The position numbers and the translations under genes are program-made. A stretch of 64,000 nucleotides of DNA from Bacteroides mediterraneensis (GTDB taxonomy: Bacteria > Bacteroidota > Bacteroidia > Bacteroidales > Bacteroidaceae): the NCBI RefSeq assembly GCF_900128455.1, contig NZ_LT635783.1:1328919-1392918 (forward strand). The letters run 5' to 3'. Below are positions 53,156 through 54,907 of this stretch, piece by piece (position 1 is the first letter of the stretch; every line of letters begins with the position of its first letter). The notes beneath the pieces are model-generated. The model saw only the letters and a program-made list of their open reading frames with translations, searched no databases and was not told the origin of the DNA.

Positions 53156-54154
53156 ATGGGAGAGCGAATCACATTCCGTCGTAACGAAGGGTTACGGAGC
53201 ATACATCCCCAGTGGAGAGGGAATCCGACAGTCAATGGGAAATTTTTCAATCGCCAGCATCGTTGGAAACCCGGTATGGGGAGTGTGTTGAAATGGCGTT
53301 TCTCTCCCAATCCCCAGCGGAAGGAGAAACGGACCATCAAGTGGAATCCAAAAGTCCATTATCTCACTTCTTTGGAAAAAGTGGTGGGAAATTCTTTAAT
53401 CTGGCTGGGGCATAACTCCTTCTTCCTGCAGCTGGGCGGCAAACGCCTGATGATTGACCCCGTATATGGGAACATTCCGTTTGTCAAACGTCGCAGCCAG
53501 TTTCCGGCCGACCCTTCTATTTTTCGTGAGATTGATTACCTGTTGATCAGTCATGACCATTTTGACCATCTGGACAAGCCCAGTGTAGCCCGTCTGGTGG
53601 CCGGCAATCCTCAAATCAAATTATTCTGCGGACTGAATACGGGGGCACTCATAAAGAGTTGGTTCCCGGAATTGGAGGTGATTGAGGCTGCCTGGTATGA
53701 ACAGTACACCGATGGCGACTTGTGCCTCACTTTTCTGCCCGCCCAGCATTGGAGCAAGCGGGGAGTGAGCGATGGGGGAGAGCGCTTGTGGGGATCCTTT
53801 ATGATTCAGGGAGGCGGCATTACCATCTATAATAGCGGGGATACAGGATATGCCCGTCATTTTGAGGAAATAGCACGGTTCTTTCCGCATATCGACTATT
53901 GTATGATTGGAATAGGGGCTTACAAACCTCGCTGGTTTATGAAGCCGAACCATATTTCTCCGTATGATGCCTTGACGGCTTCGGCAGACATGCATGCACG
54001 GGTCACGATTCCCATGCACTATGGCACGTTCGATCTTTCAGATGAACCGTTGTTCGATCCGCCTCATGTGTTTGCGGCAGAAGCCAGGAAGCGGGGGATG
54101 CCTGTCATCATTCCCGAACTGGGGGAGGTCGTGAAGCTGCAACCTCTTCGCTGA
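53156..54154 (+). CDS. Metallo-beta-lactamase-fold hydrolase (NAPE-PLD/UlaG type)
   Basis: A 332-residue hydrolase. LIWLGHNSFFLQLGGKRLMIDPVYGNIPF and YLLISHDHFDHLDKPSVARL (the HxHxDH metal site) place it in the MBL superfamily near the N-acyl-phosphatidylethanolamine phospholipase D type. NSGDTGYARHFEE near 225 and IPMHYGTFDLSDEPLFDPP near 290 supply the remaining metal ligands. It acts on phosphodiester or lactone bonds in this group; the substrate is unknown. The N-terminal 75 residues are basic and Trp/Arg-rich (FRRNEGLRSIHPQWRGNP). Second gene of the unit starting at 52695; ends at a bidirectional terminator. Confidence 0.85.
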   Translation: MGERITFRRNEGLRSIHPQWRGNPTVNGKFFNRQHRWKPGMGSVLKWRFSPNPQRKEKRTIKWNPKVHYLTSLEKVVGNSLIWLGHNSFFLQLGGKRLMIDPVYGNIPFVKRRSQFPADPSIFREIDYLLISHDHFDHLDKPSVARLVAGNPQIKLFCGLNTGALIKSWFPELEVIEAAWYEQYTDGDLCLTFLPAQHWSKRGVSDGGERLWGSFMIQGGGITIYNSGDTGYARHFEEIARFFPHIDYCMIGIGAYKPRWFMKPNHISPYDALTASADMHARVTIPMHYGTFDLSDEPLFDPPHVFAAEARKRGMPVIIPELGEVVKLQPLR

Positions 54155-54197
54155 GGAAAATCTTGAAGAAAACGATAAAAAGAGCAGATAATAAAAA

Positions 54198-54250
54198 AAG
54201 TCCGGAAACCAACTTTTCTGAATGATTCAGAAAACTGATTTCCGGACTTT
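54198..54250. terminator. Bidirectional cruciform terminator
   Basis: AAAGTCCGGAAA (54197-54208) pairs with TTTCCGGACTTT (54239-54250), with an inner hairpin TTTTCTGAAT/ATTCAGAAAA. On the minus strand CTTTTTTTATT follows; on the plus strand only a short TTTC. It ends both the hydrolase gene and the minus-strand small transcript. Confidence 0.85.
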
Positions 54251-54307
54251 CTATATGAGTCTGTTTTATTCAAGTCGTACATAAATCCGCCGGTCATCGG
54301 CAGCGGG

Positions 54308-54403
54308 TTACTTCGTGTGAGTGTTTTCACTCAACATGACGTACCCCCAGATCATCGGATCTGCATTTGCAATTTTGTTTAGAATCTTTGTTACCTTTTT
54401 CAT
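54308..54403 (-). CDS. Candidate 31-residue small protein
   Basis: A 31-codon ORF from ATG 54403 to TAA 54308. N-terminus MKKVTKILNKIANADPMIWG, then a hydrophobic/neutral tail to HTK. It is preceded by GAAAGGATAACAGTT. It lies within a minus-strand unit with a TACCTTTG element at 54585-54592 and a terminator at 54198. After the TAA the same frame stays open for 13 codons and reads PAADDRRIYVRLE before a second stop, so a CAA-to-TAA change may have shortened a 45-residue protein. Upstream, the frame is also open through the leader but has no ATG. No homologous family was recognised. Confidence 0.45.
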   Translation of the reverse strand: MKKVTKILNKIANADPMIWGYVMLSENTHTK

Positions 54404-54580
54404 AACTGTTATCCTTTCATTTGCTTTTTGGTTAGTACCTATATCTAATTCTAGTCTAGTTTTTCCGGGTGCTCTTCGCAGAGGACCTTTCGAAGCTTTA
54501 TGGTTTGTTCTTTTGTTATCCTTAATCTTTTTATCCTTTCCCTCCGGTACCCTTTCGGGTTCCTTCGTTCGTTTTATTAC
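54404..54580 (-). ncRNA. Candidate structured leader of the small-protein transcript
   Basis: About 175 nt between the predicted RNA start and the 31-codon ORF. Two hairpins close GNRA-type loops: GGAACCC-GAAA-GGGTACC (minus strand near 54546-54562) and CTCT-GCGA-AGAG (near 54473-54484). The motif AAGGATAA occurs three times, the last just before the ATG. Not matched to any known RNA family by eye. Confidence 0.4.
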
Positions 54581-54584
54581 ACTG

Positions 54585-54592
54585 CAAAGGTA
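54585..54592 (-). promoter_or_regulatory. -7 element of the small minus-strand transcript
   Basis: Minus strand TACCTTTG, exact TAnnTTTG. No clear -33 TTTG. With the terminator at 54198 it predicts an RNA of about 380-390 nt. Confidence 0.45.
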
Positions 54593-54907
54593 ATGCCTTT
54601 TTTCTGGAAAATATGTTTTATAGCATATAATTTTATTTTTCTCATGTTTTATTGATGTAAATCAACCAAGCCGACTGCTACTGACAAATTGTCGTTTTTG
54701 CCTGTCAGTATCAGCTGACAGAATTGCGTTTTTTTGTGTGGGGATAATGAAAATGGCAGTCTGACGAGGGATATGCCCCGATGGAGGATGTGTCAGGTTT
54801 CACTTGTCCTGAAAATAAAAGATAAGATTTTGTGTTTCTTTTGTTACAAAAGATATAGCTTTACGTTTACCTTTTTGAAAACAACTTGTACGACCGATTT
54901 AAGAAGC

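Follow-up and report, generated by a model that had tools for sequence, protein, structure and literature searches.

For the CRP-like regulator Cur (BT4338), the published consensus is the 22-bp palindrome wwwTATGTTnTAnAACATAwww (PMC6989115, PMC3878776). BT4338 orthologs in B. vulgatus (BVU_3580), B. fragilis and B. ovatus are reported to control fusA2 upon carbon limitation, and for B. (now Phocaeicola) vulgatus, in which BVU_3580 is listed as a Cur ortholog with 77.3% identity, a 75.6-fold induction of fusA2 under this condition is given (PMC10294740). The nearest published stand-alone transcripts linked to starvation are two sRNAs of B. thetaiotaomicron, MasB and BatR, for which sizes of ~100 nt and of 154 nt (374 nt in the initial published annotation) are stated, respectively (PMC10994844, PMC10861873). 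Ribosomes of Bacteroidia are described as sequestering the anti-Shine-Dalgarno (anti-SD) sequence in a pocket of bS21, bS18 and bS6. Strong SD sequences are described as rare in this class and as found mainly in rpsU and rpsR; the rpsU SD pairs at below -13 kcal/mol, and rpsU is reported to be translated by bS21-deficient ribosomes (PMC9976891). For the small proteins of B. thetaiotaomicron, 409 sORF candidates have been reported, seven of which were supported by ribosome profiling (PMC7366714).

The unit described here lies in the window, by which we mean the whole stretch of 64,000 nucleotides of Bacteroides mediterraneensis DNA that was analysed. On the minus strand, positions 54193-54665 hold a stand-alone, unannotated gene for the 31-amino-acid protein MKKVTKILNKIANADPMIWGYVMLSENTHTK. 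Our preferred reading, to which we give a probability of about 0.7 from sequence comparisons, is that this gene produces a monocistronic tiny-protein mRNA that would be activated by Cur at carbon limitation and translated via its SD sequence into a two-helix amphipathic peptide. In the direction of transcription, the unit is composed of the following parts:

54652-54665, minus strand: Crp/Fnr-type palindrome TTGATTTACATCAA, 73 nt upstream of the -7 element
54609-54630, minus strand: Cur/BT4338-like palindrome TTATATGCTATAAAACATATTT, matching 19 of the 20 scored consensus positions, with its centre ~40 nt before the estimated transcription start
54585-54592, minus strand: Bacteroidetes -7 promoter element TACCTTTG
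54404-54580, minus strand: leader of ~177 nt, its start (the transcription start) being estimated from the -7 element
54546-54563, minus strand: 5'-proximal GNRA hairpin
54468-54487, minus strand: conserved leader hairpin GGT-C-CTCT-GCGA-AGAG-C-ACC, with a GNRA loop and a C.C mismatch
54412-54418, minus strand: SD sequence GAAAGGA
54308-54403, minus strand: ORF for MKKVTKILNKIANADPMIWGYVMLSENTHTK, 31 codons and a stop codon
54193-54250, minus strand: intrinsic terminator, a long hairpin followed by a T-run (fold prediction and exact search)

The comparisons below establish this anatomy (promoter, leader hairpin, SD, ORF and terminator), and the selection that acts on the ORF, at the level of sequence. 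Much of the layout had been recognised in the initial annotation. Its placement of the unit in a gap between two plus-strand genes was correct, these being a metallo-beta-lactamase-fold gene (53156-54154) and a gene for an ECF-type sigma factor; exact searches recovered the -7 element and the three AAGGATAA motifs (54531-54538, 54516-54523 and 54409-54416) that it had listed, and its 31-codon ORF and strong terminator with T-run were likewise found again. What it lacked were the two palindromes 5' of the -7 element and the assignment of the third AAGGATAA motif to the SD sequence. Six of the seven aligned relatives end in a similar hairpin and T-run, and the sequence of the seventh (L046) stops short of that point. 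A terminator finder, crude enough to support enrichment only, was positive in 42 of the 88 distinct units defined below and in 18 of 234 random stretches. Folding of the whole unit (-102.3 kcal/mol, z-score -5.0) beat all 100 shuffles, a score that says little about the leader because the terminator is the largest predicted stem. Antisense to the unit, the plus strand carries a 90-codon ORF with a GTG start and a hydrophobic translation (54321-54593), which is probably an opposite-strand by-product.

Promoters and SD sequences were compared in 65 rows (the window, 44 named loci and 20 fetched loci) and, with 30 Bacteroides-type loci added, in 95 rows, from which seven repeats were removed to leave 88 distinct units; as controls we used 238 neighbouring genes, taking no more than three from each cluster and assigning their ATG starts mechanically. 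A Crp/Fnr-type palindrome TTGAYNNNNRTCAW was present 73-76 nt before the -7 element in all 88 distinct units and in one of the 238 neighbouring genes, and all of the first 65 rows had a TTGAYNNNNRTCA[A/T] palindrome at this distance. The -7 element itself, TAnnTTTG, was aligned in the window and all seven relatives (8/8 sequences), with variation at the two free positions. The second palindrome of the window scores 19/20 on the published Cur/BT4338 consensus, and a Cur-like palindrome of at least 17/20 was found within 330 nt upstream in 81 of the 88 units, compared with 13 of the 238 controls; seven units lack a site of this quality. Two loci, L043 and L044, are counted among the 81 because the count spans 330 nt, their sole site of at least 17/20 lying 152 nt before the -7 element and thus off the usual position. 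In a narrower promoter interval, 56 of the 65 rows had a site of at least 17/20, a score that 0.23% of 1300 shuffles reached. In the window and the named loci, the Cur-like site typically begins 38-40 nt upstream of the -7 element (39 of 45 rows). In the Bacteroides-type rows this distance is 59-60 nt (29 of 30), and 27 of these rows have a further Cur-like site that overlaps the -7 element. Relative to the estimated transcription start, the centres fall at about -40 and -61, a spacing of two helical turns. Both are usual positions for CRP-type activators.

In the window's own genome, the composite promoter pattern occurred at eight places (reversed control: none). Three of these belong to the tiny-gene family, one precedes the tiny ORF MRFLIKCFIKGLRMMGDNQLQILNK and four precede ordinary ORFs of 459, 409, 314 and 122 codons, two of which diverge from a tiny gene and share its palindrome. 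The pattern is therefore strongly enriched at tiny genes but also occurs before other ORFs. The MRFLIKCFIKGLRMMGDNQLQILNK ORF (L136/L137; C1:2044813-2044894, minus strand) has 25 codons and a TTGA palindrome and Cur-like promoter without an SD sequence, and it diverges from the 314-codon ORF, the palindrome being common to both. The 122-codon ORF (L138; C1:2369672-2369754, minus strand), which has a signal-peptide-like start and no Pfam match, is possibly a further member of the regulon. This genome's second EF-G-like gene, which has 719 codons and was taken as fusA2, has a Cur-like site of 16/20 and no TTGA palindrome; this indicates that the Cur consensus is loose and that the TTGA palindrome is no general feature of Cur promoters.

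The 16S rRNA gene of the same genome ends in GGAACACCTCCTTTCT, which we take to be the end of the mature 16S tail as well. With this tail, the GAAAGGA upstream of the window ORF has a predicted pairing of -9.4 kcal/mol. Pairing of -7 kcal/mol or stronger was obtained for all 45 rows comprising the window and the 44 named loci, and for 81 of the 88 distinct units versus 11 of the 238 neighbouring genes, a control count that may be too low because wrongly assigned ATG starts would lower the number of SD matches. Seven of the 88 units are without a strong SD. Among the 45 rows the SD was AGAAAGGA in 28, AGAAAGG in nine, GAAAGGA in four and GAAAGG in four, and in 27 of the 30 Bacteroides-type rows it was AGGAGG or AAGGAGG. 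A pairing of -13 kcal/mol or stronger was reached in just one of the 95 rows, and the window falls short of the rpsU level. Taken together, the TTGA palindrome, the Cur-like site and a strong SD were combined in 76 of the 88 units and in none of the 238 controls. Since Bacteroidia ribosomes sequester the anti-SD and reports of strong SDs chiefly concern rpsU and rpsR, the tiny-gene family is an outlier in this class.

Searches with the peptide and the 400 nt, by which the initial annotation had proposed to judge its reading, found the ORF to be conserved across genera, and the opposite outcome, conservation of neither ORF nor stems, did not hold. At the DNA level, 28 of 60 genomes (the own genome included) gave matches, strongest over the promoter and the ORF and all within the own genus, which judged by its named neighbours is Phocaeicola. 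Eighteen peptides could be aligned without internal gaps, with 12 invariant positions that include MKKV, ADP, WG and VML. In a profile search of this genus, 39 of 61 genomes matched at E <= 0.01; among its good genomes 30 of 37 did so, and the remaining seven had no peptide match at this threshold. The 44 named loci are mostly from Phocaeicola, Bacteroides or uncultured relatives, and the P. vulgatus copy is at about 2584798-2584875 of NC_009614.1 (minus strand). A family-wide search of 301 genomes revealed convincing matches in three further genera (g184, g206 and g26), the last of which is presumably Bacteroides and gave the Bacteroides-type loci their name. In this genus a wider profile matched 74 of 149 genomes at E <= 0.02 and 69 of 149 at E <= 1e-5, the difference being five genomes with best E-values of 0.006-0.02 that lie inside long frames. 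The 22-bp fusA2 site of B. thetaiotaomicron gave no hit in these 149 genomes. An order-wide search matched 2 of 295 genomes, both of the own genus, and this bounds close relatives only because the profile used (A1) was narrower and few Bacteroides-type genomes were included. Judged by these matches, a family of such tiny-protein genes spans the gut Bacteroidaceae. No match was obtained for the window in Rfam at the gathering score, nor for the 31-amino-acid ORF in the families of Pfam, NCBIfam and PHROGs, and we found no published description of the peptide family in a body of literature that covered only a minority of subscription journals. The reading frame is clearly selected. Over the 25-codon core of 39 distinct ORFs, pN/pS was 0.13, and the share of non-majority bases rose from 5% at the first two codon positions to 27% at the third (~fivefold), so that the ORF is under purifying selection as a protein and the lack of a selected frame that would mark a non-coding sRNA was not observed.

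Own-genus genomes with a match carry one to three copies. The three good copies of the own genome (the window, C1:885736-885825 and C1:1398450-1398536) have the promoter architecture in common; the last of them has 25 codons, and its profile match extends past stop codons. Tandem copies ~0.5 kb apart were seen in L043 (4015-4104 and 4494-4583) and L010 (979 and 1520). The two peptides of L044 (CALXVY010000043.1), a contig labelled Alphaproteobacteria, are identical to those of the Candidatus Phocaeicola contig L043, and L044 is likely misbinned. Clustering of the flanks of 64 loci showed that the neighbouring genes vary between paralogue groups. Around the commonest copy they encode a PIF1-like helicase in 27 loci, an MscS channel in 19 and a Sua5/YrdC protein in 18; the 25-codon copy is flanked by a Fur-family gene (five loci), and the six Bacteroides-type loci by an M20 peptidase gene. 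Since no gene accompanies all paralogue groups among these 64 loci, the unit looks self-contained.

Beyond the first ORF, the units of Bacteroides-type loci and of two other genera include one or two extra ORFs of ~30 codons (MKKKIMSSFRRILAEVGRNEMLMMGYTIKK and MGKKIVNSFKEVLTKVGENWIEAMKYYNYPR are examples), and arrays with a total of two or three ORFs under a shared promoter were observed in L111-L123 and L139-L168. With a fixed pattern, one extra ORF was detected in 22 of the 30 Bacteroides-type rows, two in five and none in three. An SD match longer than 4 nt was missing from 27 of 32 downstream ORFs, a strong SD being found as a rule only before the first ORF of Bacteroides-type units. The ORFs are alike by eye, though hhalign of the profiles of the first ORF and of the second and third ORFs gave a non-significant probability of 9%, and common ancestry is for this reason not established. 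The sister ORFs had PHROGs matches only at E-values of 0.03-0.18, below a useful threshold.

The product is predicted to consist of two helices joined by an ADP turn, the first amphipathic and basic, the second containing WGYVML. AlphaFold2, run on 25 sequences from the window and named loci, placed helices at residues 2-12 and 16-30 (mean pLDDT 79.6, pTM 0.30), the second of which is partly hydrophobic in this model. The first helix is basic and amphipathic, with a hydrophobic moment of 0.78 in the window peptide that was reached by 0.3% of shuffles; for two other members, 2.9% and 1.6% of shuffles reached the observed moment. Profile matches in the PDB to C5HR2_4r (E 0.008), the anticancer peptide CB1a (0.075) and a CC-Pent variant (0.61) were taken to reflect composition. 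Phages gave no peptide match, and none of the 15 stretches found in viral contigs was a relative.

Leader structure was examined in a sequence-only MAFFT alignment (A7) of 37 of the 45 leaders from the window and named loci, the eight left out being mostly near-duplicates by eye. An earlier hairpin alignment (A4; 36 windows of 52 leaders) was set aside as biased, and A7 was relied upon, because the A4 windows had been selected by their fit to the hairpin. Mean column identity in A7 was 41%, and RNAalifold returned a single element, a four-pair stem with a GNRA-type loop. Extended by three pairs across the C.C mismatch, this stem had 86.9% of cells paired and two-sided changes in six of its seven pairs. 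Its covariation score of 0.487 was reached by none of 500 shuffles (0.218 +/- 0.025), and despite the tool's warning that relatedness can inflate such scores the hairpin is likely real, since versions slid along the alignment scored 0.045-0.251. Two of five hairpin measures were not clearly above the shuffles, namely the number of pairs with two-sided change (43/500) and the pair types (337/500). Both hairpins with GNRA loops in the initial annotation are present in the window: the one at 54468-54487 covaries, as that annotation had suggested looking for, and the alignment of the other, at 54546-54563, does not extend beyond close relatives. Leaders of the Bacteroides-type loci L111-L116 are short (29-73 nt), with one weak GNRA hairpin among the six.

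That annotation had left the choice between a small-protein gene with long-leader control and a regulatory RNA. The small protein gained support from cross-genus conservation, codon selection and the SD; leader control of the tiny gene is plausible in view of the covarying hairpin; and a purely non-coding RNA is disfavoured. In a milder form of the latter, the structured transcript would act on other mRNAs in the manner of MasB and BatR, with the ORF being secondary. Such a dual-function or mainly regulatory RNA would account for the hairpin and for the unit having its own promoter and terminator, and precedents are described, MasB being Cur-activated and BatR increasing under conditions that include carbon starvation (PMC10994844, PMC10861873). 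Nevertheless, the leader turns over while the peptide persists under strong codon selection, and a search of the short leaders of L111-L116 found only one weak GNRA hairpin, which makes this explanation distinctly unlikely.

Even less likely is a type I toxin, in which case the small product, amphipathic or hydrophobic, would damage the membrane and be silenced by the structured leader or an antisense RNA. The small size, the basic amphipathic helix, the structured leader, and the one to three copies per genome with tandem copies in L043 would fit such a toxin, but the second helix, as predicted, may be rather short to span a membrane, and a strong SD with a starvation-type activator is unlike a silenced toxin. 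Concerning an antisense partner, a scan of the plus strand with an E. coli-type promoter model, which is ill-suited to this phylum, gave one match where 2.1 were expected by chance. The antisense reading frames are interrupted by stops in 8, 29 and 32 of the 39 ORFs. A secreted peptide (RiPP precursor, pheromone or bacteriocin-like) would also be small and basic, and could be read into the weak similarity to CB1a, which is most likely due to composition; however, no transporter or maturation gene is common to all groups among the 64 loci, a signal peptide is not evident by eye and phage or viral relatives were not found, so that we regard this explanation as very improbable. A leader peptide or attenuator of a neighbouring gene, suggested by the order of a short ORF followed by a terminator, is barely credible: both window neighbours are on the opposite strand, neighbours vary between copies, and the unit retains its own promoter across copies.

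For the preferred reading, a tiny-protein mRNA activated by Cur, we infer the regulator, the conditions, the target and the function as follows. When preferred sugars run out, Cur would bind the ATGYTNTAAAACAT palindrome and switch the gene on, while a second Crp/Fnr-type protein at the TTGA palindrome would add another signal. The message would then be translated via direct SD pairing, and since ribosomes of this class normally hide the anti-SD, its output may be limited to ribosomes whose 16S tail has been freed. During starvation, the peptide would probably dock on a larger target, either the membrane or the translation machinery. A broader proposal, tentative and rather unlikely in our estimation, is a Bacteroidaceae starvation microprotein regulon, in which promoters with Cur and Crp/Fnr-type sites at fixed spacing would govern SD-led mRNAs that encode one to three tiny amphipathic proteins. 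As most Bacteroidia ribosomes hide the anti-SD, these messages are proposed to be read preferentially by a starvation-altered subpopulation of ribosomes, and the products might tune those ribosomes or the membrane.

With the tiny-gene family, the Cur regulon, which has been published as required for gut colonisation by B. thetaiotaomicron, would gain a predicted class of genes that escape gene callers. The family also offers a natural set of strong-SD messages in a class whose ribosomes reportedly do not use SDs; who reads such messages, and when, is testable in P. vulgatus, for which a Cur-ortholog deletion strain has already been published. Like fusA2, masB and the sugar-use genes of the Cur regulon, the window unit has the wwwTATGTTnTAnAACATAwww palindrome in its promoter; unlike these, it has a tiny protein as its product and a second, TTGA palindrome at a fixed distance, with Cur control being predicted from sequence. 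With the SD-led rpsU and rpsR of Bacteroidia the tiny gene shares a strong SD complementary to the 16S tail, whereas its pairing is weaker than that of rpsU (-9.4 versus below -13 kcal/mol) and its product is no ribosomal protein. MasB and BatR, which rise in starvation, are similarly short stand-alone transcripts with terminators, but in the present unit a selected ORF explains the conservation. Lastly, the 409 sORF candidates of B. thetaiotaomicron (PMC7366714), as described there, are unannotated, similar in size to the tiny ORF and may include a homologue; compared with that set, the tiny gene is a family with a promoter, an SD and selection that is without an NCBIfam or Pfam family.
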